A DNA stretch of 42,319 nt from Deltaproteobacteria bacterium (GTDB lineage: Bacteria > Desulfobacterota > Desulfobacteria > Desulfobacterales > B30-G6): positions 1-42,319 of the forward strand of contig JAHEIB010000005.1 of the NCBI GenBank assembly GCA_024639645.1. The letters are read 5' to 3'. How positions within the stretch are numbered: position 1 is the stretch's first letter; each line of letters opens with the position of its first letter. Below the pieces are notes generated by a model. It was given only the letters and a program-made list of their open reading frames with translations, did no database searches and was not told where the DNA came from. The position numbers and the translations under genes were made by a program. Positions 3,475 through 39,061 of the stretch are shown here, piece after piece.

Positions 3475-3585
3475 TTAAGAAGCTGATAATGAATACGGGA
3501 AGCTTCGTCAAGCTATTTTATTTTTTTCGACTCATTTAGCCATTAAAAGCACACCAGGTGTGTCTGGAAATCTTGCACCGCGATA

Positions 3586-17191: not shown

Positions 17192-18127
17192 ATGAAAGCC
17201 CCATCTCCAGATAAAATTATTCCTCGATCCATTTCAGGTGCTATTTTCGGTGTTGCGGCTTTTCTCATCTGGGGCATCAGCCCACTTTATTGGAAAACAT
17301 TGACGGCAGTACCTGCCCTTGAAATCGTCTCTCACAGAGTGGTCTGGTCCTTTCTGCTCCTCATACCCTTGATTCTGATCAGAAAGCGCTGGAAAGAATT
17401 CTTGCTGGTTTTGAAAAACTGGCGCTCCATTGGCATCCTGGCAGCAACATCCCTGTTTGTCTCCTGCAACTGGCTTGTCTATATCTGGGCCATCAACAAT
17501 GGCTTTCTCCTGCAGGCCAGTCTCGGTTACTACATCAACCCCCTCGTCAATGTGTTGCTGGGCACTCTTTTTTTGAAGGAACGCCTTAGATCTTTCCAGG
17601 GCCTTGCGGTACTGCTTGCCGGGACAGGTGTGCTTTATCTCACTGTCTTCTATGGGCAGTTTCCCTGGATCGCGTGCATTCTAGCATTTACATTCGGATT
17701 ATATGGATTGGTCCGCAAAGTTATTGCGGTGGGTTCTCTGGTGGGGCTGACCATGGAAACCTTACTGTTGGCATTGCCCGCCCTGGGATATCTGATCTAT
17801 CTGGGTATGAACGGCTCAGCCGCATTTTCTGTGGTGTCGCTTCAAATTGACCTGCTTCTTGTGGGAACGTCGGTTGTCACCGCCCTGCCCCTGCTTTTGT
17901 TTGCCATGAGTGCCAGAAGAGTCAGACTGACAACGCTGGGCTTTCTGCAATACATTGCACCCAGTTGCATGTTTGTAATGGCAGTCTTTATTTATCTGGA
18001 GCCCTTTACATCGGAACAGCTCATCAGCTTCATCCTGATCTGGACAGCCCTCGCCGTCTACTCCATGGACTCCGTTATTTATTATCGCAAGTCCGGAACA
18101 GCCGAAATAGCATCGCAAGCAGATTAA
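17192..18127 (+). CDS. rarD: EamA-family transporter RarD
   Basis: 311 residues with about ten membrane helices, the standard RarD length. Family markers are GAIFGVAAFLIWGISPLYWK near residue 17, EIVSHRVVWSFLLL, LLGTLFLKERL, and LGFLQYIAPSCMFVMAVFIY in the second half. The two repeated EamA halves are visible. RarD belongs to the drug/metabolite transporter superfamily, and the substrate is unclear in most bacteria. Its last bases overlap the end of the convergent FmdB-like gene by four bases. Confidence 0.85.
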   Translation: MKAPSPDKIIPRSISGAIFGVAAFLIWGISPLYWKTLTAVPALEIVSHRVVWSFLLLIPLILIRKRWKEFLLVLKNWRSIGILAATSLFVSCNWLVYIWAINNGFLLQASLGYYINPLVNVLLGTLFLKERLRSFQGLAVLLAGTGVLYLTVFYGQFPWIACILAFTFGLYGLVRKVIAVGSLVGLTMETLLLALPALGYLIYLGMNGSAAFSVVSLQIDLLLVGTSVVTALPLLLFAMSARRVRLTTLGFLQYIAPSCMFVMAVFIYLEPFTSEQLISFILIWTALAVYSMDSVIYYRKSGTAEIASQAD

Positions 18128-18375
18128 ATATTCTTACCGCAGCAGCTTCCCGGTCCGGCACAATTTGCCTGACCCGGTGACGATCCACAGCAGGCGGTAT
18201 CACCGGGACCGGGGTGGTTTAATGCTGACGATCCGGAAACCGCCGCATGAGCGGAAAGCAGCTTCTTAAGTTTACCACCGCCACAGGATGTGCATTTGAC
18301 ACGATTGGTCGTGGAAGCAAGAAGGATTTCGCTGGTTTTACCGCAATCACTGCACAGGTACTCGAAAATGGGCAT
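18124..18375 (-). CDS. FmdB-like zinc-ribbon protein with Cys-rich tail
   Basis: 83 residues from MPIFEYLC at 18375. An ATG two codons upstream is also possible. The N-terminal FmdB/CxxC zinc ribbon has YLCSDCG and VKCTSCGGGKLKKLLS. The tail is unusual, with CCGSSPGQANC and GSCCGKNI, so five further cysteines could hold metal. FmdB-type proteins are small putative regulators often found next to metabolic genes. Here it is the last gene behind NifX- and NifU-like genes. A metal or sulfur/selenium handling role is only inference. Confidence 0.75.
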   Translation of the reverse strand: MPIFEYLCSDCGKTSEILLASTTNRVKCTSCGGGKLKKLLSAHAAVSGSSALNHPGPGDTACCGSSPGQANCAGPGSCCGKNI

Positions 18376-18426
18376 ATCCATTATCCCTTTTGGCGTGTAT
18401 TATCTTCTATCCCCTATTGTGTAGAA

Positions 18427-18885
18427 TCATTTGAAGCTTGTGTCTTGGGTTTTTGGGTTTTGTGATTGTTGATACGCATCAATTGTAAGGTGGAGCGCCT
18501 TGACCGCCAGTTGAATGCAATGATGCTTTTTAACGGGAATGTCCTGCAAAACGCGAAAAATGTCACCATCTTCAAGATTCCGTGCATCTTCGATATTTTT
18601 ACCTTTGACCAGGTCCACGGCTGCCATGGCGGCGGATATGGCACCGGCACAACCCATCACCTGATACATGACATCCGTAACCTTTCCATGAGCCACCTTG
18701 AGATACACAGCCATGGTGTCACCACAGGTGCCGGTCATCTCAGACACCTGGTCTGCATCCGAAAGAACACCCATATAGGGTTTTTCCAAGTAATATTGAA
18801 TGGCCTTGTCAGAATACCCTGCATTTGACAGCATTTCCCTGACGCCATTGGAAGCACCGATGGTTTCAATAATTTCCTCAGACAT
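18427..18885 (-). CDS. NifU/IscU-like iron-sulfur scaffold protein
   Basis: 152 residues from the ATG at 18885, which has AAGGAA upstream. The three cysteines of the IscU/NifU-N scaffold fold are recognisable in TGTCGDT, VMGCAGA and KKHHCIQLA. Such proteins assemble or carry Fe-S clusters. The order differs slightly from housekeeping IscU: there is an extra N-terminal helix and no IscS, so this looks like a dedicated or donor-type scaffold. It overlaps the NifX-like gene by eight bases (18878-18885), implying translational coupling, and precedes the FmdB-like gene. Confidence 0.75.
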   Translation of the reverse strand: MSEEIIETIGASNGVREMLSNAGYSDKAIQYYLEKPYMGVLSDADQVSEMTGTCGDTMAVYLKVAHGKVTDVMYQVMGCAGAISAAMAAVDLVKGKNIEDARNLEDGDIFRVLQDIPVKKHHCIQLAVKALHLTIDAYQQSQNPKTQDTSFK

Positions 18886-19279
18886 CTTCAATTCCTTTTG
18901 AGTGAACACAATCTCCGATTCCCTGGTGCCCGCGGCATGTCTGATCCATGGTAAATGCAGGCAACTTGTTCTCTTTTATGAGTGAAAGATTCTCAGAAAC
19001 GCTTCCTTCAACGGCCCGATATGCCTGAACGCCGGCATCCAACAGCTTTTTTAACGCACCACCGCCGATGCCGCCGACAACAACCGCGTCCACGGGCGTT
19101 CCACCAAGGGCGGTCAAGGGCTGGCAATTCCCATGCTCATGAACCAGATCCTGATTGTTAAGAATCTCCAGTTTACCATTCTCTGAAGCCACAACAACAA
19201 AAAACGGCGCTGACCCAAAATGGTTGTGCACCGTGCTTTCTAAACCCTTGTTTTCCTGTATTGGAAAAGCGATCTTCAT
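18878..19279 (-). CDS. NifX/NafY-type dinitrogenase cofactor-family protein
   Basis: 133 residues. It is a single NifX-like domain: MKIAFPIQENKGLESTVHNH, then FGSAPFFVVV, then GTPVDAVVVGGIGGGALKKL with a C-terminal QAYRAVEGSVSENL. Members bind metal clusters such as FeMo-co precursors or act as metallocluster carriers. No nitrogenase genes are in this window. With the coupled NifU-like gene it is better viewed as a carrier for a different Mo- or Fe-S-containing cofactor, which is inference. The late CRGHQGIGDC motif may supply cysteine or histidine ligands. Confidence 0.82.
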   Translation of the reverse strand: MKIAFPIQENKGLESTVHNHFGSAPFFVVVASENGKLEILNNQDLVHEHGNCQPLTALGGTPVDAVVVGGIGGGALKKLLDAGVQAYRAVEGSVSENLSLIKENKLPAFTMDQTCRGHQGIGDCVHSKGIEDV

Positions 19280-19336
19280 GTTTTTATTCTCCTGTTTGCG
19301 TTCATTTTTCAGCAGTAATAAATAGACACGATAAGG

Positions 19337-19409
19337 GAAGCTGTCAAGCTATAAGCTTTAAGCTATAAGCCATAAGCTGCTTACCGCTTAAAGCTTAAAG
19401 CTCCTAAGC
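19337..19409. repeat. Heptanucleotide repeat hairpin, copy 6
   Basis: The left units CAAGCTA, TAAGCTT, TAAGCTA, TAAGCCA, TAAGCTG are followed by inverted units GCTTACC, GCTTAAA, GCTTAAA, GCTCCTA. The stop of the metallo-beta-lactamase-fold gene lies within the array. The array falls between two genes of the same strand and may split the transcript. Confidence 0.85.
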
Positions 19410-20354
19410 AAAGGTCATTTTTGTGCCTGCCATATTCAACAAAAACGCATCCGGCATCTCCCTTTCAATATGCATGACAGCATCCCGACCGGTACAATGA
19501 GCTGGAATAATGTAATGGGGATCGATCTCTTTTAATCCTGATGTGGTGGGAGATATGACACCCTCAAAATCAGCCCCTGACAAATGAAATCCCCCCATGA
19601 CCGCCCATACATCCGTCACCCCCGTAACATGCTGTGCATATTTAATTGTGTTCACGATACCTGCATGGGCACAGCCAGATATGATCACGAGGCCCTTATC
19701 CCTGATATTGAAAACAATACCCGAGTCATCGTGAAAAGGGTCTTGCTTCTCTTTGCCTTCAGCTTCGTAAAACATATCGGGCATTCCCTTCTCAAAATCA
19801 GTAAGCCGTGGTATTTCTCCCAGAAATATCCCATCACCATCCAGGAATGGATAGGGTTCCCGGGTTTCGACTAGATTCACACCGGCCTTATTTGATTTTT
19901 CCCGGGATAATGATGGCACAATTACGCGTAATTCTTCTGTAATCTTCCGATATCTGGGTTTGACAAAAACGCCTGGATGTACCACCAGATCAAGATCCTT
20001 TTTCCCCACTGCTGCGACCAGGCTTTCAAGGCCTCCAAGGTGATCCACGTGGCCATGGGAAAGAACCAGAACTTCCACCTGAGAAAGGTCAGCGTTCAAA
20101 GCTTTGGCATTCAAAGCGGCCCCATCTTCTGAAAAACCAAAATCGAACAACATATGACGGGCTGTCCCCTTTTTTGTGATAGTGATCCATGTGGAAAATC
20201 CGTGCTCTGCGCGAATACTTTTACGAAATTCATCTCTCTTTAATGGCATGGCTCGCTGCACAATTTCGTTGCTGTCCTGGGCAACAAGGTCAATATAGTT
20301 GTCCTGCAGCGTCGTTACTACCACCTTTTCTACCTGGTTCAGTTGTGCATTCAT
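19404..20354 (-). CDS. Metallo-beta-lactamase-fold hydrolase (COG1237-like)
   Basis: 316 residues from the ATG at 20354, with GGAGG five bases upstream. The metal site is SHGHVDHLGG at about 100. Supporting motifs are HDDSGIVFNI, VIISGCAHAGIVNTIKYA, AVMGGFHLSG and YIIPAHCTGRDA. This pattern resembles the group annotated as 7,8-dihydropterin-6-yl-methyl-aminobenzene-phosphate synthase-like hydrolases. It sits 34 bases downstream of the nucleotidyltransferase-HD gene in the Mo-hydroxylase accessory island. A pterin-related role in cofactor maturation is attractive but unproved. Confidence 0.75.
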   Translation of the reverse strand: MNAQLNQVEKVVVTTLQDNYIDLVAQDSNEIVQRAMPLKRDEFRKSIRAEHGFSTWITITKKGTARHMLFDFGFSEDGAALNAKALNADLSQVEVLVLSHGHVDHLGGLESLVAAVGKKDLDLVVHPGVFVKPRYRKITEELRVIVPSLSREKSNKAGVNLVETREPYPFLDGDGIFLGEIPRLTDFEKGMPDMFYEAEGKEKQDPFHDDSGIVFNIRDKGLVIISGCAHAGIVNTIKYAQHVTGVTDVWAVMGGFHLSGADFEGVISPTTSGLKEIDPHYIIPAHCTGRDAVMHIEREMPDAFLLNMAGTKMTFA

Positions 20355-20388
20355 GACCACCTCCATATGATTCGCTCACTGTTTCGGT

Positions 20389-21504
20389 TCAGCAGATGAT
20401 CTTCTCCCCTGTAATCCGTTCAATCGACTTCTGGATCTTCATAGCGGTCCGGATACGCTTTTCAGCTGCTATTTGCCCTTCTGGATGACCCGAAAGCTGT
20501 TCCAGTTTTGATTCCAGGCGTTTTTCAAGAGGCATGATTTCCTTGCCGTAAGACAGTTTGTCAGCCAGATAAATAACTTCCTTTTCCGTAATTTTCCCCT
20601 TACTTGCAAAAGACAGATCCATGTGACACACCACGATGTCGGCAATATGTGGATATCCCATACTTTTCAGAATTTCAGTTCCGAATCCAGCATGATTTCT
20701 CGTACCTTTTCCGATATCATGCAGATATCCGCAAGCTTCCATCAGATCGACGTTCACCAGGCATCCAGCCCGCACAAGTTTTGTCCCGATATCCCGGGCA
20801 ATCTGTGCGACAGTTTTGCTATGCCTTACAACGGGATGATTTTCTGAAAACCGGGTTGCCATCATGGCCATACATTCGCTTTTCAATGGGATCTGAAGGT
20901 TTTCATATCGGGCAACGATCTGCCCGTATTGTTCGGACGTATCCATGTCCATCAGGATGCCCTGGTCAAATACCGGCACGTCAAGAGAGCTGTGGTCGTA
21001 CTGTTTCAGAAACACTTTCAGGCCACCAGTGCCTGACCAATGGGAAAGTTTTTCTGCGTATTGACGGGGAATCAAAGGTGGATGCCCTCTTTTACCAAGA
21101 AATGTGGGGTATATAATTTGTGACCTGTCTTTTCCGGAGGACCCCATCAGCATCTGGAGTGTCTGTGGCCTTACCAGAGGAATATCCACCGGCAGAATAA
21201 AAAAAGACTTGGAATCATGCTTTAAACCACCGACTCCCACCTTAACGGACTTAAACATTTCCGATTGATAGTCGTCGTTGATGCTCCAGGAAACCGCCAA
21301 ATTTTCCAGCACGGCTATCACATTGCGGGCTTTGTGTCCTAAGACGACCCGTATATCACAAACACCGACGCTTAAAAATGTCGCCACAACCTGCTCGATC
21401 ACGGTTTTATTGCCCAGCGGCAGAAGGGGCTTGAATTTTTCCATGCGGGAAGATACTCCCGCAGCAAGGACAATTGCAGCGACATTGGTGGGAATTATTG
21501 CCAT
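20389..21504 (-). CDS. MobA-like nucleotidyltransferase fused to HD domain (DVU_1551-type)
   Basis: 371 residues. N-terminal residues 1-200 form a nucleotidyltransferase domain with AAIVLAAGVSSRMEKFKPLL near residue 8, ILPVDIPLVRPQTL, and KRGHPPLI. The C-terminal half is an HD phosphohydrolase domain with VRHSKTVAQIA, ACGYLHDIGKG and VVCHMDLSF. As far as I recall, this fusion is known as the DVU_1551 family in Desulfovibrio, near aldehyde/xanthine oxidoreductase genes. It probably modifies molybdopterin with a nucleotide (CMP, as in MocA) for a hydroxylase-type Mo cofactor. The HD role is unknown. It heads the minus-strand run to the MBL gene. Confidence 0.82.
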   Translation of the reverse strand: MAIIPTNVAAIVLAAGVSSRMEKFKPLLPLGNKTVIEQVVATFLSVGVCDIRVVLGHKARNVIAVLENLAVSWSINDDYQSEMFKSVKVGVGGLKHDSKSFFILPVDIPLVRPQTLQMLMGSSGKDRSQIIYPTFLGKRGHPPLIPRQYAEKLSHWSGTGGLKVFLKQYDHSSLDVPVFDQGILMDMDTSEQYGQIVARYENLQIPLKSECMAMMATRFSENHPVVRHSKTVAQIARDIGTKLVRAGCLVNVDLMEACGYLHDIGKGTRNHAGFGTEILKSMGYPHIADIVVCHMDLSFASKGKITEKEVIYLADKLSYGKEIMPLEKRLESKLEQLSGHPEGQIAAEKRIRTAMKIQKSIERITGEKIIC

Positions 21505-21728
21505 GCATCGAAGATACCATGGCCGTAGGCCTTGTCAATAAAGGAATTGACCAAGACCTAAGATGATCTCAATAGAAATATGTGCCCCTCTCATCTACGA
21601 GCCGAAAAAGGATTAAACGCTGATCTTATCCTTTTTGTTGGGTTGATATTCTCCTGGTAATGTGCTTTTAAACAATGCTTAATTAAAGATGTTAAATAGT
21701 ATTTTCCACGATTTTATTGAGAAAGCCT
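21505..21728. promoter_or_regulatory. Divergent promoter region of the Mo accessory island
   Basis: 224 bases between divergent starts. CTTGTCAAT and ATTGACCAAG at about 21532-21556 form an imperfect inverted pair that could be an operator or a hairpin. The remainder is AT-rich near the plus-strand start. I can define no promoter with confidence. Confidence 0.3.
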
Positions 21729-22748
21729 ATGAAAAGTATACGCGTGCAAGACGCTGCCGGCATGGTTCTCTGCCATGATATCACGGAAATCGTCCCCGGG
21801 AAATTCAAGGGACCATCCTTTCGCAAAGGTCATGTCATCCAAAATTCCGATATCGAGAAATTACGCGACCTTGGCAAACGATTTATTTATGTCTTTGAAT
21901 TGACAAAAAACCAGATACATGAAAATGAAGCCGCCAAACGCATCGCCAAAGCAGCCACAGGTCCCGGCATCTTTCTGAGCGAACCCGCCGAGGGGAAAGT
22001 CACTCTCTCTGCTGCCCCAGAAGGTCTGTTGAAAGTCGATGGTCCGGCCTTGACCCTGATCAACCAGATCGAGGACGTCATGTTTGCAACGCTCCACAGC
22101 AACCAGCCGGTTGCGGACAAACAGCCGGTGGGGGGAACACGGATCATACCACTTGTGACCGATGAAGCGCGTATCCAGCGTGTGGAAGCCATCTGCAAAG
22201 ACCATTTTCCGATTCTGCAGGTAAAGCCCTTCGTACCGCATAAAATAGGCTTGATCGTAACAGGCAGCGAGGTATTTGAGGGTCGTATCGAAGACGGGTT
22301 TGGACCGGTGGTTGAAAAAAAGTTCAACGACCTGGGCAGTCGCGTGGTGGGGTATGAAAAGGTGTCGGATGATATCGACATGACCATAAAAGCCATCCAT
22401 GGTTTCATCCGCAAGGGTGTCGATATGATCGCCCTTACCGGCGGTATGTCGGTGGACCCGGATGACCAGACACCTGCCAGCATTCGCGCTGCCGGCGGGA
22501 AGGTCGTTGTCTATGGTGCCCCGGTCTTGCCGGGAGCCATGTTTATGTTGGCCTATATTCAGAATACCCCGGTGATTGGTCTCCCCGGATGTGTCATGTA
22601 CCACCAGACCTCAATTTTCGACCTGGTGGTGCCAAGACTCCTGGCCGGCGAATCCGTAACAAGGGACGATATCGTTGCCATGGGGCATGGTGGCTTCTGC
22701 TCCAATTGCGACACCTGCCGATTCCCTGTCTGTCCATTCGGCAAATAA
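21729..22748 (+). CDS. MoeA-like molybdopterin-binding protein with Cys-rich C-terminus
   Basis: 339 residues from the ATG at 21729. An upstream in-frame TTG is less likely. The N-terminal part opens with SIRVQDAAGMVLCHDITEI. The molybdopterin-binding (MoCF) domain shows PHKIGLIVTGSEVFEGRI, then DMIALTGGMSVDPDDQTPAS, and VIGLPGCVMYHQTS. The C-terminus ends in a compact cysteine cluster, CSNCDTC and VCPFGK. MoeA proteins insert molybdenum into molybdopterin. This shorter relative lies beside MocA-, YqeC- and YqeB-like genes, so it may be the maturation variant dedicated to the hydroxylase. The four cysteines could bind zinc or an Fe-S cluster. Confidence 0.82.
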   Translation: MKSIRVQDAAGMVLCHDITEIVPGKFKGPSFRKGHVIQNSDIEKLRDLGKRFIYVFELTKNQIHENEAAKRIAKAATGPGIFLSEPAEGKVTLSAAPEGLLKVDGPALTLINQIEDVMFATLHSNQPVADKQPVGGTRIIPLVTDEARIQRVEAICKDHFPILQVKPFVPHKIGLIVTGSEVFEGRIEDGFGPVVEKKFNDLGSRVVGYEKVSDDIDMTIKAIHGFIRKGVDMIALTGGMSVDPDDQTPASIRAAGGKVVVYGAPVLPGAMFMLAYIQNTPVIGLPGCVMYHQTSIFDLVVPRLLAGESVTRDDIVAMGHGGFCSNCDTCRFPVCPFGK

Positions 22749-22753
22749 TTGTC

Positions 22754-23380
22754 TTAACCATCCTTGAGCATGATCAATGACTGCGCTTTTTCAAAATCTT
22801 TCTTCGTATCAATATCGTGGAAAAATGATGGCCGCATCACTGGAACCCTGAGGATATGATCCGGATGATCTTCTATGATTCCCCTGGCACCGATATCCCC
22901 CCTTATGTTGTTTATCTTGTCATAAAACAGGGCGTTGAAAATCACCGGATTGCCTCTTTTTTTTTGAAAAAAAGGTACACAAATATTTTTTTCTGAAGCC
23001 CAAAAACATGCCAGTAGATGATTTATTGTCTTCGAATCAATAAAAGGCTGATCGCCTAAAATAAACATGGCGGAAGGATGGGTATTTCTAATTTCACGTA
23101 TGCCCGTTTGTAGTGAAGTGCTTTGGCCTTTACGATAATTTTGGTTAACAAGAATATTAAGGCGTGGATCTTTGATTTTCTCTGAGATAGTCTTTTTAAT
23201 TTCTTGGTACGCATAGCCAAGAATTAAATAAATGCTTTCGAGGCGAGAATCCAGACAGGCACTCAATATCCACTCAAGAACTGTTTTTCCCCCAAGTGCC
23301 ATAAGTTGCTTGGGTCTCCCGAAGCGTGAAGACATGCCGGCCGCCAAAACAATTCCAGCCGTTGGTTTTTTCCTTGTCAT
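22754..23380 (-). CDS. mocA: MocA-like molybdenum cofactor nucleotidyltransferase
   Basis: 208 residues from the ATG at 23380 (MTRKKPTAGIVLAAGMSS). The frame stays open upstream to 23506, but that part is dispersed-repeat DNA. The nucleotide-binding motif is GIVLAAGMSSRFGRPKQL, followed by SIYLILGYAYQEIKK, KGQSTSLQTGI, FILGDQPFID and KRGNPVIF. It matches the MocA family, which makes the CMP or related dinucleotide form of the Mo cofactor for xanthine-dehydrogenase-type enzymes. It ends within a few bases of the convergent molybdopterin-binding gene. This window therefore encodes two such nucleotidyltransferases. Confidence 0.85.
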   Translation of the reverse strand: MTRKKPTAGIVLAAGMSSRFGRPKQLMALGGKTVLEWILSACLDSRLESIYLILGYAYQEIKKTISEKIKDPRLNILVNQNYRKGQSTSLQTGIREIRNTHPSAMFILGDQPFIDSKTINHLLACFWASEKNICVPFFQKKRGNPVIFNALFYDKINNIRGDIGARGIIEDHPDHILRVPVMRPSFFHDIDTKKDFEKAQSLIMLKDG

Positions 23381-23423
23381 AGGGACTCTCTTAGATAATT
23401 TTTTCCAAATGGGCAGGGCTGCA

Positions 23424-23511
23424 TGAACGGCAATAGCGAGCGCATTCCCCGTAGGTTCTGCCGTTCGGCAGTGCTTCGCATGCTGCGGGGTTAGCGAGCG
23501 AATCAAATAGA
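23424..23511. repeat. Dispersed palindromic repeat, copy D (inverted)
   Basis: TGAACGGCAATAGCGAGCGC at the start matches the reverse complement of copy A closely for about 48 bases, including GTTCTGCCGTTCGGCAG. The rest resembles copy B. A second fragment (CAGCTTGCTGCAGGGAACG, about 23540) suggests nested or partial duplication. It occupies most of the 302-base gap before yqeC. Confidence 0.7.
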
Positions 23512-23682
23512 CAAAATCCTTACCGAGAAGAGTATCCTGCAGCTTGCTGCAGGGAACGCTTCAATTGCTGTTACCCAAAAAAACAAGTTCTATTACTGAT
23601 ATTGACTGAACTGGGTTGCTATTTCAATATTTTTTTGACGGCCTGATCTCTTTTCTGATATGAGACTATTTCACCATCTTCA

Positions 23683-24486
23683 ATGGATAAACAGATGACC
23701 TCTTTATGCCATGCGCTTGGGCTTACAAAAAAAGGTGTGATCAGCCTTGTAGGAGCGGGCGGCAAAACAAGCTTGATGTTCAGGCTGGCCCGAGAGTTTT
23801 CATCATCGGGACTATCGGTGTTGACAACGACAACCACAAAAATATTATCCCCAGCGACAGATCAGTCAACACACCTGATAATATCCCATAGCCCAGAAGA
23901 AATATTAAGCAGGGCAAAGGATATGATAGCGCATACCCCCCACATAACGGCAGTTTCCCATTACATGACGGAAACGGGAAAACTCATGGGATTTTCACCA
24001 GAAACGATTGAGCTGTTCCAGAAATCAAGTCTATTTCGCTGGATAATTGTCGAAGCGGATGGTGCGGCCGGATTGCCCCTGAAAGCACCTGCATCACACG
24101 AACCGGTCATACCGGATTGTACTGACTGGGTCATCGGCATCGTCGGCCTCAGTGCACTGGGAAAGCCCCTTGATAAACACACTGTATTCAGACCCGAGCT
24201 TGTTTCGAAAATTACCGGTTTATCCGAAGGTCGTGAGATTTTGGATAAGACCATATGCGATATACTATGCCACCGGCAGGGAATATTTCAAGGAACCCCC
24301 GGGAGTGCTCAAAAAATAGTATTTCTCAACCAGGCTGACATACCCCAAAAAGCACAAGCCGGACAATCCATCATTCGAGAATTAATCAGGATAAAAGCTA
24401 AAGGTATTTCACGTGTGGTTCTGGGGTGCACATCTGTTGAACCGCCGGTTCTTGAGCACCATACATTTCATCAACATTTGTCATGA
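23683..24486 (+). CDS. yqeC: Selenium-dependent hydroxylase accessory protein YqeC
   Basis: 267 residues. It has an N-terminal P-loop-like GAGGKTSLMFRLA near residues 24-36, then VLTTTTTKI, then IVEADGAAGLPLKAP at about 124-138. The middle carries TDWVIGIVGLSALGKPLD, and the C-terminal half IVFLNQADIP. This is the YqeC pattern, a GTPase/kinase-like protein found with YqeB and selenium-dependent molybdenum hydroxylases in comparative genomics studies. Its exact chemistry is unknown. It is transcribed toward yqeB (convergent), unlike the other accessory genes. Confidence 0.88.
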   Translation: MDKQMTSLCHALGLTKKGVISLVGAGGKTSLMFRLAREFSSSGLSVLTTTTTKILSPATDQSTHLIISHSPEEILSRAKDMIAHTPHITAVSHYMTETGKLMGFSPETIELFQKSSLFRWIIVEADGAAGLPLKAPASHEPVIPDCTDWVIGIVGLSALGKPLDKHTVFRPELVSKITGLSEGREILDKTICDILCHRQGIFQGTPGSAQKIVFLNQADIPQKAQAGQSIIRELIRIKAKGISRVVLGCTSVEPPVLEHHTFHQHLS

Positions 24487-24610
24487 AAGTTGAACTGAGT
24501 CCTTGGCTGTACTTTAAACCTAACACCTAAAACTTAAAACGGTCTGTTTCCCCTCGAAACCTCGAACCCTTCATTTGGATCAACTCTTTTGGAGATGATC
24601 CAAATAAATT

Positions 24611-25420
24611 TCATGCGTCTTGGCTTACCGGGATTACTCTTAAAATGGCCTCCAGTACTGAACCGCTGATGGCGCGCGCTTTATCGGAAATAGTATTACA
24701 GTACGTCTGTTCTCCCCTTGGATCGATATCACCAATTTTCAATCCGTTTCGAACATTGCTGTTTGGTCTGATGAGACCACGAAGAATACCACTTATGTGC
24801 GCCGCAACATCCGCATTGCCAACCCTGCCAAGCACTTCCCCCTTTTCCACACGGTCACCTATGGCCTTGTTCGATATAAATTGGCCTTCTGCCGGTGCTC
24901 TCAACACTCTCTGCTCGGTATAACCGCCTATGTTTCCCGGGATACCGGTATTGGGCGCCGCGGAACCCGAAATATAAATTCTTCCCAAATCATGCCCTCT
25001 ATTGGTTTCAACGACCATGTGGACGTCCTGTCCCGCAGTGAACCCCGGTCCCAAACCAATGACCAGCTGCGCATCATCCATGGTTGTTCCAAGGTTCTGC
25101 TTGGCCAACACAGCATCCACCACAACGTTGACTGGGAGTTGTTTCAGCAGTTGCCATGTGGGGTCTACCGCAACAGCAATCTTTTTCTTTTGCCAACATT
25201 GCTCGATCTCATTGACATTACGGCATAGAACGGCCTTGATGTTTTCCACTTCATGCGTAGCATTGTGCACAGCTTCGCAGAATGAGACATTACGCCTCAC
25301 AGCCAAAGGCCTGGAACACTCCATCATAAATATCTTTTGTATGTTTGCCATATATAGCCGCCAGGCGACTGCGCTGGCTATTTCGCCAGCTCCTTTGATA
25401 CCAATGATCATTTCGTTCAT
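24611..25420 (-). CDS. yqeB: Selenium-dependent molybdenum cofactor maturation protein YqeB
   Basis: 269 residues from the ATG at 25420. An alternative start at 25465 would add 15 residues with no better support. The N-terminal Rossmann-like segment is IGIKGAGEIASAVAWRLY, then MMECSRPLAVRRNVSFCEAV, then VVDAVLAKQNLGTTMDDAQL, VIGLGPGFTAGQDVH and VVETNRGHDLG. GSAAPNTGIPG follows. A C-terminal biotinyl-lipoyl-like segment contains VLRAPAEGQFIS. This is the EF2563/YqeB family that marks selenium-dependent molybdenum hydroxylase loci. Its presence suggests the hydroxylase encoded at 32839-36454, or another in the cell, has a labile selenium ligand. Confidence 0.9.
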   Translation of the reverse strand: MNEMIIGIKGAGEIASAVAWRLYMANIQKIFMMECSRPLAVRRNVSFCEAVHNATHEVENIKAVLCRNVNEIEQCWQKKKIAVAVDPTWQLLKQLPVNVVVDAVLAKQNLGTTMDDAQLVIGLGPGFTAGQDVHMVVETNRGHDLGRIYISGSAAPNTGIPGNIGGYTEQRVLRAPAEGQFISNKAIGDRVEKGEVLGRVGNADVAAHISGILRGLIRPNSNVRNGLKIGDIDPRGEQTYCNTISDKARAISGSVLEAILRVIPVSQDA

Positions 25421-25628
25421 TCCAATACCCGAAGGATGTAAAAACAGTATAAGCGATAAGCACAAATATTCAGTTGCTTAAGCATGGGAAAATCTCTATA
25501 TATCGATAGGTATTTCCATTAAAAAGTATCTTTGGAAGCCTTTTATTTTATATAACAAAACTATCAAAGCTGAGATGAGAAAACAAGCCAAGAATCGGCT
25601 TCTTTTTGTTCAATATACTGGGGTGATT

Positions 25629-26429
25629 ATGATCCTGATAAAACGATGGCAATTGCTTTTTACCTTATTTGTGGGTTTTCTTACTATCGCATGTGTGAAT
25701 GTTGTCAGTCCTGACCGCAATCATGACACCGGACAGAAAACAGATCAAAAAGCCCTAAGTCCAATGGGTGCTACCGAGGGTTCAGATGCTTTGTATCATC
25801 GGTGGTACGAAAACGGTGTTCTGGCCGAAGAAACCGTGTTTGCTCACGGGAAAAAAAATGGTGTACACCGGCTGTGGTACGAAAACGGAAACCGGAAATT
25901 GGCCAGTCGTTTTGTTGAAGATCGTCTGGACGGTGCATGTCTGGCCTGGTTCGAAAACGGCAAATCGCGTCTCAGCATCCGGTTTGATCAGGGAAAACGA
26001 ACAGGCGAGTGGATCCGCACAGGAGAAAAAGTTGGGGTTGTCGCCCGGGTTTCTTTCAAGGAAAATCGCCTGGACGGCCCTCTGGCCGTATTGGTCAATC
26101 GGGGTTACGGAAACGGGAGCGGCCGCTCTCTTGAAATTGAGGCCAAATTTTACCGGGGGCAACTTGTCTCGTCTTTTCGTTTCAAAGAGGCTGACGCTTC
26201 AGGGAATAACTTGCACCTGACCGGTATGATCCTGACAGACGGCCGACTTCAGGTGCACAAAATAAAAAACATGGTTTTTCATCCCAATGGCGGGCTGACA
26301 TGCCATATGGGTGATATTGAAACGAACTATAACGATATAGATCATTTCTTTTCATCCAAAATAGCAAACCGTGTCATGCCTATGTTTACCCTCGGATTCT
26401 GTGGAATTCAAATTGAAATGACACTTTGA
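25629..26429 (+). CDS. YwqK/MORN-repeat lipoprotein
   Basis: 266 residues from the ATG at 25629, with GGGGTG upstream. The frame extends upstream to 25575. The lipoprotein signal is at about 1-23 (LLFTLFVGFLTIAC with the cysteine lipobox). The core has MORN-like WYENG repeats: HRWYENGVLAEETVF, RLWYENGNRKLASRF and AWFENGKSRLSIRF, each about 23 residues apart, then a beta-rich C-terminal domain that I do not recognise. YwqK-like proteins are commonly annotated as antitoxin-family, but no toxin is adjacent. A periplasmic or outer-membrane structural role is equally likely. Confidence 0.72.
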   Translation: MILIKRWQLLFTLFVGFLTIACVNVVSPDRNHDTGQKTDQKALSPMGATEGSDALYHRWYENGVLAEETVFAHGKKNGVHRLWYENGNRKLASRFVEDRLDGACLAWFENGKSRLSIRFDQGKRTGEWIRTGEKVGVVARVSFKENRLDGPLAVLVNRGYGNGSGRSLEIEAKFYRGQLVSSFRFKEADASGNNLHLTGMILTDGRLQVHKIKNMVFHPNGGLTCHMGDIETNYNDIDHFFSSKIANRVMPMFTLGFCGIQIEMTL

Positions 26430-26485
26430 AACAATGGGCGGATACTGAAACAGAGCTGTCTTAAAAATGACGGGGGAAATTGATA

Positions 26486-27826
26486 ATGACCTTGGCCGAC
26501 AAAAAAACCGTTAAAAATAAAATCTGCGACATTATCGACGAAAGGAAAGAAGATATCACGTCCATAGGTGACGCCATACGCAAAAATCCCGAACTCGGCT
26601 ATAAAGAGTTTAAAACTGCGGACCTCTCAGCGCGCATCATGAAATCAGCGGGTTTGCCTGTTGAATCCGGGCTGGCGGTAACCGGCGTCAAGGGGCGGCT
26701 TGCGGGGGAACATCCCGGTCCGACGATTGCCCTCATTGGTGAAATGGATGCCCTGCCTGCACCGGGTCATCCCGGGGCTGACCCGGAGACCGGGGTGTCG
26801 CACAACTGTGGTCACGACGCACAGATCGCCGGACTCTTGGGGGCTCTTTTCGGTCTGACAGCAGTCGGGATAGGGCAAAATATATCTGGAACAATCATCT
26901 TTCTTTGCGTACCCGCTGAAGAATACGTAGATATCGATTTCCGGGAACGTCTGGTAAAAGAGGGAATGATTACCTATCTGGGCGGAAAACAGGAACTCAT
27001 CAGGTTGGGCCATTTTGATGACGTGGATCTTTCCCTGATGATACACATACACAGCCGTGCCGACTATCCCACCGTGGCCGTGGCCGATTCATCTAACGGC
27101 TTTATCGTGAAAAAGGTCCGTTTCCTGGGAAAAGCCGCCCATGCCGGTGTTGCGCCTCACCAGGGCATCAATGCCTTAAATGCAGCACATCTGGCAATAG
27201 CGGCTATTCACGCTCAAAGAGAGACGTTTCAAGACGCGGATGCCGTACGCGTGCACCCCATCATCACCCGTGGCGGCGATAGTGTTAACGTGGTACCCTC
27301 AGAAGTATGGTTGGAAACGTTTGTGCGTGCCCGTACTGCTGAAGCCATGCAGGACGCATCGGATAAGGTGGACAGGTCGATCCGGGCAGGCGCCATGGCC
27401 ATAGGAGCCGGTGTTGAAATCAAAACGATGCCTGGCTATCTGCCCATGGGGAACAATCCAGACTTGAGGGAAATATTGGGTGAAAACAGTCGTACACTTT
27501 TCGGCAAGGACGCGTTTGGGCGCGTACCGCACAGAAGCGGGTCAACAGACATGGGCGATCTATCACAGATCATGCCTGCTCTCCACCCTTATCTTGCCGG
27601 CGCCACCGGATCTCCTCACAGTGACAATTGGCAGCTTGATGACAGATCGCTTGTTTACATCAGACATGCAAAATTGATGGCACTGACCGCGGTGGACCTT
27701 TTGTGGGGCAAAGCTGAAGCTGCACGATCTATTGTAAAACGCCATCGGCCAACATTTACGCGTGAGCAATATGCCACGCTGCTGAATAGCTGGTCCAAAA
27801 CCGATACATACAACACGCCCAAATGA
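26486..27826 (+). CDS. M20-family amidohydrolase (AbgB/IAA-hydrolase-like)
   Basis: 446 residues from the ATG at 26486, with GGGGGA eight bases upstream. An earlier TTG at 26480 is not needed. It is a metal-dependent amidohydrolase: IALIGEMDALPAPGHPG at about 86-102, HNCGHDAQIAGLLG at about 114, VPAEEYVDIDF, then the dimerisation domain AAHAGVAPHQGINALNA and RVHPIITRGGDSVNVVP. Such enzymes hydrolyse amides or N-acyl groups, for example aminobenzoyl-glutamate. Here a ring-opened N-heterocycle or an N-carbamoyl intermediate is imaginable. It converges on the BMP transporter gene with an 87-base gap. The substrate is unknown. Confidence 0.85.
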   Translation: MTLADKKTVKNKICDIIDERKEDITSIGDAIRKNPELGYKEFKTADLSARIMKSAGLPVESGLAVTGVKGRLAGEHPGPTIALIGEMDALPAPGHPGADPETGVSHNCGHDAQIAGLLGALFGLTAVGIGQNISGTIIFLCVPAEEYVDIDFRERLVKEGMITYLGGKQELIRLGHFDDVDLSLMIHIHSRADYPTVAVADSSNGFIVKKVRFLGKAAHAGVAPHQGINALNAAHLAIAAIHAQRETFQDADAVRVHPIITRGGDSVNVVPSEVWLETFVRARTAEAMQDASDKVDRSIRAGAMAIGAGVEIKTMPGYLPMGNNPDLREILGENSRTLFGKDAFGRVPHRSGSTDMGDLSQIMPALHPYLAGATGSPHSDNWQLDDRSLVYIRHAKLMALTAVDLLWGKAEAARSIVKRHRPTFTREQYATLLNSWSKTDTYNTPK

Positions 27827-27913: not shown

Positions 27914-28951
27914 TTATTTTGGGAAATGTTCGTTTAGGAACTTGTGAAGGTCGGCAGCCACCGGAATGTCCACCACAGCGATGGCACCCGATTTCAGCTT
28001 TGCTTCCAAATCCTTTATTTCCTTGCGTACATCGCTTGGAACAGCCTTGTTCGGTTCCAGAAGGCGGATGGCGCCGTTATCCATGGCAACCCAATGCTGC
28101 TTGCCAAAAGAGCCGTCCTTCCAACTCTGGATGATCTCGTCGTAGACAACCGACATATCCCACAGCACGGAGCTCAGCAGAACGTCAGCCCTGTCAATGG
28201 AACTCTTGTCGCCGATGACATCGATAAACCAAACCTTACCACCATCTTTTGCTTTCTTGCTCGAACAGGCCTGGAGCATACCAAAGGAAGCGCCATCACC
28301 CATTCCGAAAATGACATCCGCACCCACGGCGATCTGATCCTCTGAATTCCGTTTTGCACCGGCCGCATCTGCATAAGCTGCTTCGCCGATAAGGCTGTAC
28401 AGAAGTTTGGCACCGGGGTTTGACGCCTTGAGTCCCTGCGCAAAACCTGCCGACATCCGATTCCATGTGGGTGGTTCGCCTGAAGTAACGATACCGACGA
28501 TGTTCGAACGTGTCATCTTGCCAGCCAGATAACCAGCCATATAACAACCGCCCTGGGGCTGGGTGTCGATGTCGCTAATCAGTCCCGGGGTAACGTCTTT
28601 GTGGTTTTCAGTGGTGACGACCCGTACGCCTGTTTCCCGGGCGATTTCAGGTGCCACAGTCTGATAACCGGAAGCATGACAGATGATCAAATCACTCCCC
28701 TTTTTGACCATGTCACGCAGGGTTGGTTTGATATCGCCATAACCCAGGGCCTCCCCCAGCTCCATTTTAAAACCGTATTTGGCGGCAATCGCTTCGAGCC
28801 CCACCTTACCTTGTTCGTTCCACCCTTTATCCGTGCCCGCCTCGGGAATGGTCAGGCCCACCAGTTTCGGCAGATCGGCTGCCAGGACAAGGCTGGTTGA
28901 AAAGCAAATCACAATCGCCAGGGTCATCGCTGTTCCTATGATTCTTCTCAT
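27914..28951 (-). CDS. BMP-family ABC transporter substrate-binding protein
   Basis: 345 residues. The signal peptide is at about 1-24 (MTLAIVICFSTSLVLAAD), cleaved by signal peptidase I because no lipobox cysteine is present. The family features are VGLTIPEAGTDKGWNEQG, LIICHASGYQTVAPEIA, GGCYMAGYLAGKMTRSNIVG, GADVIFGMGDGASFGM and IDVIGDKSS. BMP/Med proteins bind purine nucleosides or related heterocycles. It is the terminal gene of the long minus-strand cluster, separated by 133 bases from the permease gene, and has AAGGAGC upstream of its ATG. The ligand would be the presumed heterocyclic substrate. Confidence 0.85.
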   Translation of the reverse strand: MRRIIGTAMTLAIVICFSTSLVLAADLPKLVGLTIPEAGTDKGWNEQGKVGLEAIAAKYGFKMELGEALGYGDIKPTLRDMVKKGSDLIICHASGYQTVAPEIARETGVRVVTTENHKDVTPGLISDIDTQPQGGCYMAGYLAGKMTRSNIVGIVTSGEPPTWNRMSAGFAQGLKASNPGAKLLYSLIGEAAYADAAGAKRNSEDQIAVGADVIFGMGDGASFGMLQACSSKKAKDGGKVWFIDVIGDKSSIDRADVLLSSVLWDMSVVYDEIIQSWKDGSFGKQHWVAMDNGAIRLLEPNKAVPSDVRKEIKDLEAKLKSGAIAVVDIPVAADLHKFLNEHFPK

Positions 28952-29084: not shown

Positions 29085-30023
29085 TTATTTTTGACCCCTT
29101 TCATACGGGACACACAACGCTGCCGGCAGGTTTGTGGATCGTGCAAATATCAGCAGCGTGGCGATAACGACAAGATAGGGCGTCATGAGGATAAAATCGG
29201 GGCTGACCTTTACTCCGGCCACCTGCAGTGCACTGGTCAGGGACATGGAGAATCCAAATAAAAGAGCACCAAGAAATACTTTTAACGGATCCCATTTCCC
29301 AAGCATGACCACAACGATGGCGATGTATCCCCGACCCATGATCATATTGGGCACAAAAAAAGCCAGGTCACCGAGAGACATGAAGGCACCGGCCAATCCT
29401 CCCATGATGCCGCCAAAAAGGATCGCTATATAGCGGGTTTTTAACACGTTGACACCAGACGAATCCGCTGCCCAGGGTGTTTCTCCAACGGCTTGAATTC
29501 TCAGCCCCAGACTGGTCTTGTACATGATGAAATAGAGCACAGGGACGCTCAAAAATGTCAGGTACAGCAACCAGTGCTGATTGAACAAAGGCTGGCCAAT
29601 CAAGGGTATCTTGGACAGAAGAGGAACTTCATGCGTCTGTCCCGCAGTGAACATAATAGGGAATTGATTCCCGAATATAACACGGTGCAGAAAACTGCAA
29701 CTGGCATGTGCAAAAATCGTTATACCGAGTCCCACAACGATCTGGTTCACCCTGAGGGTGATGGTCATAAATCCAAAAAGAAGACCCAGAATCATCCCGA
29801 CAGCGGCTGCGGCCACAAAACCAAGCATTAGGCTGTCCAGCTTGAATCCCACCAAAAAGGATGCAAAGGCCCCCGCCACCATCATCCCTTCCAGACCCAG
29901 GTTCAACAGACCTGAGCGCTCCACAAAGGTTTCGCCCAAGGCCCCCAAAAGAATGGGTGTGGTCCCCCTGAGGGTAGATGCCATAACCGCACCGATCAAA
30001 GCCATGTCCATTAGAGAACTCAT
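29085..30023 (-). CDS. ABC transporter permease of the BMP/nucleoside type (second)
   Basis: 312 residues with about eight to nine membrane helices. GTTPILLGALGETFVERSGL near residue 20 and LNLGLEGMMVAGAFASFL are diagnostic of the YufQ/NupQ branch of BPD_transp_2 permeases. QAVGETPWAADSSGVNV and GGIMGGLAGAFMSLGDLAFF follow in the second half. It starts at the overlapping TAATG of the preceding permease gene, so translation is coupled. It forms the membrane channel with the other permease, and the two-domain ATPase provides energy. Confidence 0.88.
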   Translation of the reverse strand: MSSLMDMALIGAVMASTLRGTTPILLGALGETFVERSGLLNLGLEGMMVAGAFASFLVGFKLDSLMLGFVAAAAVGMILGLLFGFMTITLRVNQIVVGLGITIFAHASCSFLHRVIFGNQFPIMFTAGQTHEVPLLSKIPLIGQPLFNQHWLLYLTFLSVPVLYFIMYKTSLGLRIQAVGETPWAADSSGVNVLKTRYIAILFGGIMGGLAGAFMSLGDLAFFVPNMIMGRGYIAIVVVMLGKWDPLKVFLGALLFGFSMSLTSALQVAGVKVSPDFILMTPYLVVIATLLIFARSTNLPAALCVPYERGQK

Positions 30024-31054
30024 TAAAAGGCCCTCCTTTTTTCTATATATTCAGAGGCAGCGAAAAACAGGAGGGTCAGTCCCTCCAGAATATGAACAAA
30101 AAATATCGGCACCCCCTGATCCCGGGCTACAAACTCTCCCCCTACACTTAAAAATGAAAAGAAAAATGCCAGCGGAACGACCGCCCACCCGTTAAATCTT
30201 GCCAAAAAAACAAGGGGAATGGCGGTCATACCGTACGCGGGGTTCCAGTCACCCTGAAACAGTCCTTTGATGGCAAGGACATCGCTAACACCGGCCAGGC
30301 CTGCAAAGCCACCGCTGATTAAAAGTCCCCAAATAGTAATTCGGGCGACATTCATGCCGGAGTGAAATGCTGCACGTTTGTTGGACAAAAGCACTCGAAA
30401 CTCATACCCGAGAGTGGTCTTTCGAATCACGTAATGCATGATAAAAAGACAGATGATCCCTACAATCAGACCGATGTGTATTGACGTAAAAGGGATCATG
30501 GAGAGACGGTGTTCCATTGGGATCAGCGCAGTCTGAGCCGGAACGGATGTGGGATCGTTGATGGGGCCCTTTACAAGCCATGTGACCAGGTTGATGGCCA
30601 CCCAGTTCATCATCATCGTGGTGATGATCTCATTCATGTCGTAGCGCGCTTTGAGAACGGCGGGCAGAAGGATCCAGAACATACCTCCCATCGCCCCCAG
30701 TGCAGCGACAGAAAGCAAGTATATGGGATATGGCAGCAGGCTGGCCAGTGTGGGCGCGCTCCACCCGGCCAGAACCGCTCCGATCAAGAACTGGCCTTCC
30801 ACACCGATATTCCACAAACCAGCTGAAAAACAAGCCAGAAGACCGGCCGAGATAATCAGGAGCGGTGCCATTTTGATAATGGATTCAACCAAACCCAGGG
30901 GGCTGAACATCCCCTGAAAAAAAAGCTGCCCAAAGTATAACAAAGGATTTTTACCGATAAAAATCAGAATGACAGCCCCGGTGATCAGGGCAAATACGAT
31001 GGAAAGTACAGAATAAAATGCAGGAGCGATATCGTTGAACTCAATTTTTTTCAC
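30023..31054 (-). CDS. ABC transporter permease of the BMP/nucleoside type (first)
   Basis: 343 residues, starting with GTG at 31054 and with AGAGGA six bases upstream. It has about nine to ten helices. The YufP/NupP pattern is visible: FSAGLWNIGVEGQFLIGAV near residue 75-93, RYDMNEIITTMMMNWVAINL, EFRVLLSNKRAAFHSGMN, and GGFAGLAGVSDVLAIKGLF. It is the heterodimeric partner of the permease downstream, with which it overlaps. It follows the ATPase gene by ten bases. Confidence 0.88.
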   Translation of the reverse strand: MKKIEFNDIAPAFYSVLSIVFALITGAVILIFIGKNPLLYFGQLFFQGMFSPLGLVESIIKMAPLLIISAGLLACFSAGLWNIGVEGQFLIGAVLAGWSAPTLASLLPYPIYLLSVAALGAMGGMFWILLPAVLKARYDMNEIITTMMMNWVAINLVTWLVKGPINDPTSVPAQTALIPMEHRLSMIPFTSIHIGLIVGIICLFIMHYVIRKTTLGYEFRVLLSNKRAAFHSGMNVARITIWGLLISGGFAGLAGVSDVLAIKGLFQGDWNPAYGMTAIPLVFLARFNGWAVVPLAFFFSFLSVGGEFVARDQGVPIFFVHILEGLTLLFFAASEYIEKRRAF

Positions 31055-31063: not shown

Positions 31064-32596
31064 CTATTCTTCAATGCCAAGCATAAGCTTGCCGATTTTT
31101 TCCGGTGTGGCATCGCATTTATCCAAAATAGCCATGATCTTACCGTTGAACAGGACCCCTATCCGGTCAGAGCAATTGATCAACTCATCCATTTCCGAAG
31201 TGATGAGCAGAACGGATGTACCCTGCTTGCTTTCTTCCAGAAGCAGTTCCTGGATGTAGTTCACGGTCCTGGCATCAAGCCCATAAGTGGGTTTGCTGCA
31301 GATAATCAATCCCGGCTCGGTGGAAAGCCCGCGGGCCAGGATGAATTTCTGGATATTACCGCCGCTGAGCGTTCCTGTCCGGACATACGGACCGGTTGCC
31401 TTGACATCAAAATCCATGATCAATTTATTGGCAAACCTGTCAACAACCGTATTATCGATAATGTTGAATCGTGAGTAGGGTGGCTGACAGTACCCCCTTA
31501 AAATGGCGTTTTCAGCGAGGCTCAAGTCGAGAACACAGCCCTCGTTCATACGGTCGTCCGTAATATATGAAATACCCATCTCGTGCCGCTTGGAGACGCT
31601 CTTACGCGAGATGTCCTCTCCCCTGAATCGTATTCGTCCGGATACGAGCTCCCGTTGACCGCCGATTGCTTCACACAGCGACTTCTGCCCGTTTCCATCC
31701 ACACCTGCGATCCCAAATATTTCTCCCCCGCGAATTTCAAAAGAAACCTTGTTCAGACCGACCACACCCCGGCTGTTCATCACTTCAACATCCTCGAGCT
31801 TTAAAACAACCTGGTCCGAGATCGTTTTTTCGACCAGGGAGCATTCGGGTATGGGCTTGCCTCCAAACATAATATTCAGAATTTTTTCGGTTGCATCTTT
31901 TTCATCCATGGACCGAAGCTCGTCACCGTTCAATTCCGCAATTTTGCGGCCCAGACTCAAAATACTGATACGGTCGGATATGGCTAACGCCTCGTTCAGT
32001 TTGTGAGTGATCAGGACCACACCCTTGCCTGCATTTTTTAGCGTTGTAATGGTCTGAAAAAGTTCTTCCGCTTCGATGGGTGTCAGAACCGAGGTGGGTT
32101 CGTCCAGAATCAGTGCCTCGGAACCACGAAAAAGTGTTTTGATGATTTCTGTCCGCTGGCGCTCGCCCACGGAAAGATTTTGGATCAGTTCATGCGGGTC
32201 AATGGCCTGCCCATATTCCTCGGAAATCCGCTTCAGTTTTTTTTCAGCATCTTTCATGTTCAATATGAAGCCGCCTTCAAACCCAAGAACAAGATTTTCA
32301 AGAACACTCAAGTTCGGAATCAAGGCGAAGTGCTGGTGTACCATGCCGATACCAAGCTTTAATGAATCATAGGGTGAACGAATCCGTGTTTTCTGCCCGC
32401 AAACCTCGATATGTCCCTCGTCAGGTTGATACAGGCCGTAAAGGATGTTCATCAGGGTTGTTTTTCCAGCGCCGTTTTCCCCTAAAAGCGTGTGGACCTC
32501 TCCAGGGAAAAGATCGAAGTCGATATGATCATTCGCCAGAACACCGGGAAAAGATTTGGTTATGCCAGCGGTTTTGATGAGTGGTGGAACGTTCAT
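31064..32596 (-). CDS. ABC transporter ATPase, double-domain (BMP/nucleoside type)
   Basis: 510 residues from the ATG at 32596, which has GAGG nine bases upstream. The frame is open to 32731 but that part is intergenic DNA. The first nucleotide-binding domain is canonical: Walker A GENGAGKTT, HQHFALIPNLSVLENLVLG, signature LSVGERQR and Walker B ALILDEPTSVLTP. The second is typically degenerate: GVDGNGQKS, signature LSGGNIQKF and Walker B LIICSKPTYGLDA, which lacks the usual acidic residue. This is the YufO/NupO architecture of nucleoside-type importers. It lies after the hydroxylase genes with a 242-base gap. Confidence 0.9.
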   Translation of the reverse strand: MNVPPLIKTAGITKSFPGVLANDHIDFDLFPGEVHTLLGENGAGKTTLMNILYGLYQPDEGHIEVCGQKTRIRSPYDSLKLGIGMVHQHFALIPNLSVLENLVLGFEGGFILNMKDAEKKLKRISEEYGQAIDPHELIQNLSVGERQRTEIIKTLFRGSEALILDEPTSVLTPIEAEELFQTITTLKNAGKGVVLITHKLNEALAISDRISILSLGRKIAELNGDELRSMDEKDATEKILNIMFGGKPIPECSLVEKTISDQVVLKLEDVEVMNSRGVVGLNKVSFEIRGGEIFGIAGVDGNGQKSLCEAIGGQRELVSGRIRFRGEDISRKSVSKRHEMGISYITDDRMNEGCVLDLSLAENAILRGYCQPPYSRFNIIDNTVVDRFANKLIMDFDVKATGPYVRTGTLSGGNIQKFILARGLSTEPGLIICSKPTYGLDARTVNYIQELLLEESKQGTSVLLITSEMDELINCSDRIGVLFNGKIMAILDKCDATPEKIGKLMLGIEE

Positions 32597-32729
32597 GTCA
32601 GTCAACCTCACAATCGATAACAGTCCAACCGGTTCAACGCATTTTCCGAAAATCGATTCTTGAGAAAAAACAATCGCCGATTGCGAATAACAAATTAAAC
32701 GAGATTTATTTAAAGCAGCCAAACAGTTC

Positions 32730-32763
32730 AATGGGTCCCCACGGGTAAACCCGTGGTCCCATT
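32730..32763 (-). repeat. Hairpin between hydroxylase and transporter genes
   Basis: AATGGGTCCCCACGGG and CCCGTGGTCCCATT are almost perfect arms around TAAA. In the mRNA this would be a strong hairpin between the Mo-subunit stop and the ATPase start. There is no U-run, so it may stabilise or process the transcript instead of terminating it. Confidence 0.6.
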
Positions 32764-36910: not shown

Positions 36911-37057
36911 TAGTGCCCATCCACAAATGATCTTTTCACGCCCTGCCAGCGTTGGGCGACATGATTTAACTCCTCAAAATAGTACACTATTCCTGCGGTT
37001 TAAATCTGTCCTCCGCCTTGGCATAACGCGAAAATCCCTATTTCTGGACGGACACTA
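36911..37057. mobile_element. MITE-like element with terminal inverted repeats
   Basis: The left end TAGTGCCCATCCACAAAT and the reverse complement of the right end TAGTGTCCGTCCAGAAAT match at 15 of 18 bases, with symmetry continuing (TTTTCACG versus TTTTCGCG). The 147-base element carries no ORF and lies between the cupin and NicX-like genes. Its right end supplies the NicX-like gene's TAG stop. This looks like a non-autonomous transposon. I did not find the parent transposase. Confidence 0.7.
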
Positions 37058-38056: not shown

Positions 38057-38096
38057 TTTTGCCTCCTTCATCTTAAAAACAGGTGCAGTTAAAACG

Positions 38097-39047: not shown

Positions 39048-39061
39048 AAAATCCTCCTTGA

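Follow-up and report, generated by a model that had tools for sequence, protein, structure and literature searches.

Does the molybdenum hydroxylase encoded at positions 32839–36454 of a Desulfobacterales contig receive selenium from the maturation genes that lie on the same piece of DNA? The contig, JAHEIB010000005.1 (C280) of the Deltaproteobacteria bacterium assembly GCA_024639645.1, was analysed over its entire 42,319 nucleotides, hereafter the window; the assembly comprises 302 contigs and is 84% complete. A first-pass annotation had proposed that a selenium-dependent maturation island at 18124–25420 supplies this enzyme with a labile Se ligand. To our knowledge, few molybdenum hydroxylases with labile selenium have been described, and the route of selenium insertion is unsolved. 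Judging from gene content and phylogeny, the window hydroxylase is quite probably a client of the Se-cofactor machinery. Families were assigned with NCBIfam models and their curated cut-offs and domains with Pfam, while co-occurrence was profiled in 117 genomes of the class and 297 of the phylum.

The maturation genes occupy 21717–25465. The yqeB gene (24611–25465, − strand) encodes a short form of the Se-Mo cofactor maturation factor without an XdhC fusion (TIGR03309, 361.2 bits, cut-off 220), and yqeC (23683–24486, + strand) encodes an Se-cofactor biosynthesis protein (TIGR03172, 195.9 bits, cut-off 73; PF19842); both pass these equivalog cut-offs by a wide margin. A MocA/YgfJ-like nucleotidyltransferase gene (22754–23506, − strand) scores 158.5 bits with TIGR03310, under the cut-off of 186.45 but still as its best family. 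It adjoins YqeB in relatives as well, its role is probably the synthesis of molybdopterin cytosine dinucleotide (MCD), and its true start probably lies near residue 45. The MoeA-like protein (21717–22748, + strand) has MoCF (PF00994, 78 bits) as its sole domain, plus a Cys-rich tail whose C-terminal CxxCxxCx4C motif could bind a metal, an Fe-S cluster or Se; in an alignment the four Cys are invariant in 9/9 relatives, one of which is from a genome without YqeB. Its gene adjoins YqeB at 7 of the 10 YqeB loci of the class. As a 62% identical relative stands beside a DVU_1551-type gene in the YqeB-less genome G070, the MoeA-like gene is common to both settings. These four genes belong together as a maturation set, and they are present as the first-pass annotation had named them.

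The structure model of YqeB was poor (pLDDT 51) and unfit for structure search, and a PDB sequence search found no solved structure related to it. YqeC carries a Walker-A-like motif, GAGGKTS. At two other loci, L076:4955–6652 (− strand) and L080:10653–12338 (+ strand), YqeB has a C-terminal fusion to a MeaB-type GTPase (PF03308, 237 and 262 bits), which may bear on the mechanism of YqeB. Together, the YqeC motif and these fusions hint at a nucleotide-driven hand-over of the cofactor. In C. difficile, yqeB is needed for the use of xanthine and urate, which is not clearly so for yqeC (PMC11448449).

The linkage between this machinery and the hydroxylase is clearest in another phylum. Two Thermoleophilia metagenome-assembled genomes (MAGs; L128, DDYF01000027, and L129, CAIYOD010000025) encode an orthologous Mo subunit, 59–60% identical, followed in a single direction by YqeC, MocA, XdhC, YqeB, a NicX-fold gene and a cupin gene. 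YqeB (341 bits) and YqeC (145–156 bits) are all over their cut-offs, and in L128 the junctions Mo subunit/YqeC, YqeC/MocA and XdhC/YqeB are 4-bp overlaps. Unless the hydroxylase is a client of it, a full Se set inside this operon across phyla is difficult to account for.

Phylogeny and co-occurrence point the same way. The window hydroxylase forms a clade with those of G252 (68% identical), G385 (66%), SAR324 and Thermoleophilia with a tree support of 100/100; orthologs in the named genomes were recovered by an alignment scan, and a single-protein contig scan gave none. Phylogenetic profiling, which the first-pass annotation had suggested as a check, showed that a wider hydroxylase clade tracks YqeB in the class: YqeB is over its cut-off in 16/17 genomes with the clade, the seventeenth having a YqeB cut by a contig end, and in 12/100 of the others (Fisher p = 2e-11, kinship ignored). 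At the level of the phylum, five further genomes have a homolog at E <= 1e-195, and YqeB is present in every one of them, compared with 81/297 in the whole sample; as three of the five are from one genus, this amounts to about three independent cases.

A selD gene, whose absence from the genome had been named as grounds for giving up the selenium proposal, was found on contig C266 (374 bits, cut-off 125). It has an in-frame TGA within the N-terminal motif SGAG-TGA-ASK, at what we take to be the position of the SelD catalytic Cys or Sec, and so reads as a selenocysteine gene itself. A selD over its cut-off with such a codon indicates that the genome would make selenophosphate and very probably decodes selenocysteine. 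Since selD is nearly universal in the class (111/117 genomes), its presence carries little weight for this particular enzyme.

The genome holds all of selD, yqeB and yqeC, and with the MoCoBD, [2Fe-2S] and FAD subunits complete in the window, the locus has the gene set of a selenium-dependent molybdenum hydroxylase (SDMH). The subunits of this hydroxylase, predicted to be Se-dependent, are encoded on the − strand at 32839–35109 (Mo-binding subunit; PF02738 and PF20256; orthologs 59–68% identical), 35106–35576 ([2Fe-2S] subunit; Fer2_2, 115 bits) and 35573–36454 (FAD subunit; FAD_binding_5, 168 bits), about 7 kb from the maturation genes, as had been noted. The locus shares with published SDMH systems the SelD/YqeB/YqeC markers, MocA-like and MoCF genes nearby, a genomic selD and three subunits; it differs in that its clade and operon are not of the purine/xanthine type, selD is on another contig, and Se is here predicted from the genes (PMC2276186, PMC2432076, PMC11448449).

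Among the nearest solved structures are 4-hydroxybenzoyl-CoA reductase (1RM6, 452 bits) and nicotinate dehydrogenase of Eubacterium barkeri (3HRD, 303 + 176 bits), the latter an Se enzyme and in this respect in favour of the selenium reading. The former is the best single-chain PDB match and provides the best NCBIfam model by score, but the window enzyme stays below the cut-offs of both reductase models (TIGR03194, 645 of 995 bits; beta model TIGR03195, 97 of 405 bits) and its operon is without benzoyl-CoA genes. The xanthine dehydrogenase XdhA model NF043082 is likewise missed (588 of 780 bits). Nicotinate dehydrogenase is alike in being a pyridine-type hydroxylase; both of its Mo subunits are highly similar to the window enzyme, and the FRGFG and GGGFG.KL motifs are common to the two. 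Its Mo subunit is split into two chains (L and M), whereas that of the window enzyme is one 756-aa chain, and no enamidase or 6-hydroxynicotinate genes were seen in the window operon.

Several observations weigh against assigning the window hydroxylase to this machinery. The enzyme does not reach the cut-off of Se_dep_XDH or of Se_sel_red (TIGR03311, 408 of 830 bits; TIGR03313, 353 of 1102 bits), but passing them is not what defines the class, because these models cover particular subfamilies rather than all SDMHs. In G252 and G385, YqeB lies on a contig other than that of the orthologous operon, so that the two may be close together in the window by coincidence, and proximity alone was dropped as proof. 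It is weak evidence in the window too, where two + strand genes are divergent from YqeB and the hydroxylase forms a − strand unit of its own, the maturation genes being in another operon 7 kb away. Many of the genomes that pair the wider clade with YqeB also hold other hydroxylases that could account for YqeB, and the node that unites the window clade with the clade of a second hydroxylase of this genome, on contig C104, has moderate support only (89/34 and 89/90).

That second enzyme could itself be the main client, because trees place it in a clade that sits beside YqeB in relatives (6–18 kb away in many of them). The genome encodes four hydroxylases, among them those of the window, C104 and C249; the clade of the C249 enzyme is also present in the YqeB-negative genomes G062, G095 and G110. 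One could suppose that YqeB and YqeC serve the C104 hydroxylase, that the window enzyme is an ordinary sulfido enzyme matured by an XdhC encoded on contig C29, and that the 7-kb proximity is chance. The separation of operon and YqeB in G252 and G385 and the presence of XdhC in the genome would suit such an arrangement, but it accounts neither for YqeC-MocA-XdhC-YqeB within the orthologous operon of two Thermoleophilia MAGs nor for YqeB in every genome with a homolog at E <= 1e-195, and we regard it as unlikely. With the window hydroxylase as a client, the C104 hydroxylase is likely a second one. The C104 locus (L014, 7484–11298) also contains HyuA/HyuB-like genes, recognised by eye, and a putative TRAP-type transporter. 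Yet another hydroxylase, on a contig of G385 (L125, C29 of that genome, 2469–9769), lies beside XdhC, YqeC and a relative of the B6-type ABC transporter.

The other part of the proposed island did not withstand profiling. The − strand genes at 18427–21504 encode NifU-like, NifX-like, metallo-beta-lactamase (MBL)-fold and DVU_1551-type proteins, the last an NTP transferase identified as the first-pass annotation had it (NF045665, 418 bits, cut-off 315); the NifU-N and NifX-like genes overlap by about 30 bases (18427–19279) and adjoin the MBL-fold and DVU_1551 genes. Their contiguity with the maturation genes in the window, together with the sulfur-handling scaffold function of NifU-like proteins, would favour a single Se-maturation island over the whole of 18124–25420, with all four products as Se or S carriers. 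DVU_1551 is, however, independent of YqeB over the class (7 genomes with both, 19 and 21 with one alone; Fisher p = 0.79) and occurs only in XdhC genomes (26/26, 17 of them with the two genes no more than 4 kb apart). It is found within 20 kb of YqeB in this genome only, and in the YqeB-less G062 of the same family NifX/NifU genes are some 5 kb away from it. The profiling covered DVU_1551, and the NifU, NifX and MBL genes were assessed by neighbourhood. On these grounds 18427–21504 is read as a separate module, its products are rejected as Se carriers, and a single island is very improbable; 18124–25420 is two modules, the neighbouring one outside the Se system and the MoeA-like/MocA/YqeC/YqeB set at 21717–25465.

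The lack of an XdhC partner had also been advanced in favour of selenium. No XdhC is encoded within the window, as stated, but this does not support Se, since one is encoded on contig C29 (XdhC_rel_AOR model NF045664, 428 bits, cut-off 350) and 27/28 YqeB genomes of the class also have XdhC. XdhC is a companion of the Se system and no sign against it, and in E. faecalis and E. coli the Se loci also contain XdhC, as genes or in fused form (PMC2432076, PMC2276186). Of the case originally made for a labile Se ligand, the client relation is supported, by way of the Thermoleophilia operons, the co-occurrence of the clade and selD, whereas the arguments from DVU_1551 and from absent XdhC fail. Directly beside the C29 XdhC gene, a HAD phosphatase is fused to a HypE/SelD-like AIR-synthase domain (L011:7266–8909).

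The remaining genes of the hydroxylase operon, all on the − strand, include a Cupin_2 gene (36527–36889; 41–73% identical in orthologous operons) and a gene for an M29/NicX-fold protein (37055–38071; 64–84% in 5 orthologous operons). A structure model of the latter, of moderate confidence (pTM 0.61), matches NicX 2,5-dihydroxypyridine dioxygenase (7CN3/7CUP) in fold, with E ~1e-15 and TM ~0.59 at 17–18% identity, and a (dihydro)hydroxypyridine is the predicted substrate of the protein; dioxygenase chemistry is unlikely because the setting looks anaerobic. At higher coordinates lie genes for a 5-formyl-3-hydroxy-2-methylpyridine-4-carboxylate (FHMPC) dehydrogenase-like protein of the 3-hydroxyacyl-CoA dehydrogenase superfamily (38097–39086; NF042925, 329 bits, below the cut-off of 500 but the best family; best PDB match 4OM8), a UbiD-family decarboxylase (39062–40504; TIGR00148, 316 bits, cut-off 245) and a PreA-like ring reductase with DHO_dh and ferredoxin parts (40572–41762; PRK08318, 208 bits, below the cut-off of 335 but the best family), whose best PDB match is dihydropyrimidine dehydrogenase. 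The C-terminal end of an aldehyde:ferredoxin oxidoreductase (AOR), cut by the contig end, is encoded at 41837–42256 and is 77% identical to L103:8104–9915, which comprises AFOR_N and AFOR_C.

Beside the hydroxylase, on the same strand, lie genes for an ABC transporter tentatively placed in the ‘putative B6’ family, each under its cut-off: the ATPase (31064–32731; NF047930, 572 of 670 bits), permease 2 (30023–31054; NF047929, 337 of 400), permease 1 (29085–30023; NF047928, 285 of 465) and a BMP-type substrate-binding protein (27914–28951; NF047927, 342 of 400). Orthologs of the ATPase and permease 2 at L130 (690 and 414 bits) and of the substrate-binding protein at L104 (402.6 bits) exceed the same cut-offs. 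On the + strand are an M20 amidohydrolase gene (26480–27826; TIGR01891, 204 bits, cut-off 154) and a MORN-repeat-like gene (25575–26429), both of which also adjoin the operon in L130, the latter at 39%. The operon is conserved across phyla. Its order in G385 is AOR, PreA, UbiD, FHMPC dehydrogenase, M29, cupin, FAD, [2Fe-2S] and Mo subunits, with G252 much alike, and a SAR324 MAG matches the window in transporter type and in its MORN and M20 neighbours; some relatives add iron-dependent alcohol dehydrogenases. Elsewhere in the window, a cobalamin riboswitch (3261–3486, − strand, 91 bits) lies upstream of a DUF4465 gene (2307–3098) that adjoins a corrinoid/heme-type ABC transporter.

The combination of AOR, PreA-like, UbiD, FHMPC-dehydrogenase-like, NicX-fold and cupin proteins with a ‘B6’ transporter suggests oxygen-free breakdown of a B6-like hydroxypyridine, to which we would give nearly an even chance; the substrate is put forward conditionally because the family scores in the window fall below equivalog cut-offs. 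With aerobic vitamin B6 degradation (4OM8) the operon shares the FHMPC-dehydrogenase-like gene, a decarboxylase and the putative B6-type transporter, but no monooxygenase was found in it, and AOR, Mo hydroxylase and PreA-like reductase are there instead, as expected for anaerobes. It may equally be that the operon degrades another N-heteroaromatic compound, such as nicotinate or a pyridine dicarboxylate, and that the B6 similarities are of superfamily level, which would be compatible with selenium in the hydroxylase. The sub-threshold dehydrogenase and transporter scores in the window fit such a substrate, as do the different transporters of the G252 operon and the lack of an FHMPC-dehydrogenase homolog in the stretch of the Thermoleophilia operon that was read. 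What speaks for the B6-like substrate is that FHMPC dehydrogenase is the best PDB match, that transporters linked to the operon in SAR324 and G385 pass B6 cut-offs (ATPase, permease 2 and substrate-binding protein), and that AOR, FHMPC dehydrogenase, decarboxylase and ring hydroxylase together suit 4-pyridoxate chemistry. The narrower proposal of anaerobic pyridoxal/4-pyridoxate degradation in several phyla, with ring attack by an Se-dependent Mo hydroxylase and then a PreA-type reductase and the NicX-fold protein, is tentative and more doubtful. We know of no earlier anaerobic B6 pathway, and none was found in a literature search covering few subscription journals.

By analogy with known SDMHs, SelD would make selenophosphate, MocA would make MCD, and YqeB and YqeC with XdhC would place Se on Mo ahead of cofactor insertion. 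The set at 21717–25465 would cooperate with SelD and XdhC, whose genes are on other contigs, and the MCD-type hydroxylase at 32839–36454 would be one client, its terminal Se ligand coming from selenophosphate-derived selenium, with the C104 hydroxylase as the likely second. For a B6-like substrate, the order of steps that we infer would begin with import, after which AOR would oxidize the 4′-aldehyde to the acid, the FHMPC-dehydrogenase-like enzyme would oxidize the 5′-group and UbiD would decarboxylate. The (Se)Mo hydroxylase would then hydroxylate the ring, the PreA-like enzyme would reduce it, and the NicX-fold protein and the amidohydrolase would process it last.

The hydroxylase is likely a further SDMH in an unusual operon, apparently previously undescribed. 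A yqeC-mocA-xdhC-yqeB set translationally coupled to one hydroxylase offers a compact, expressible system for studying Se insertion. The operon itself suggests that B6-like pyridines may be degraded without oxygen by a route not yet described, and if an Se-dependent anaerobic B6 pathway is real, it would extend the selenium hydroxylases to a new class of substrates.

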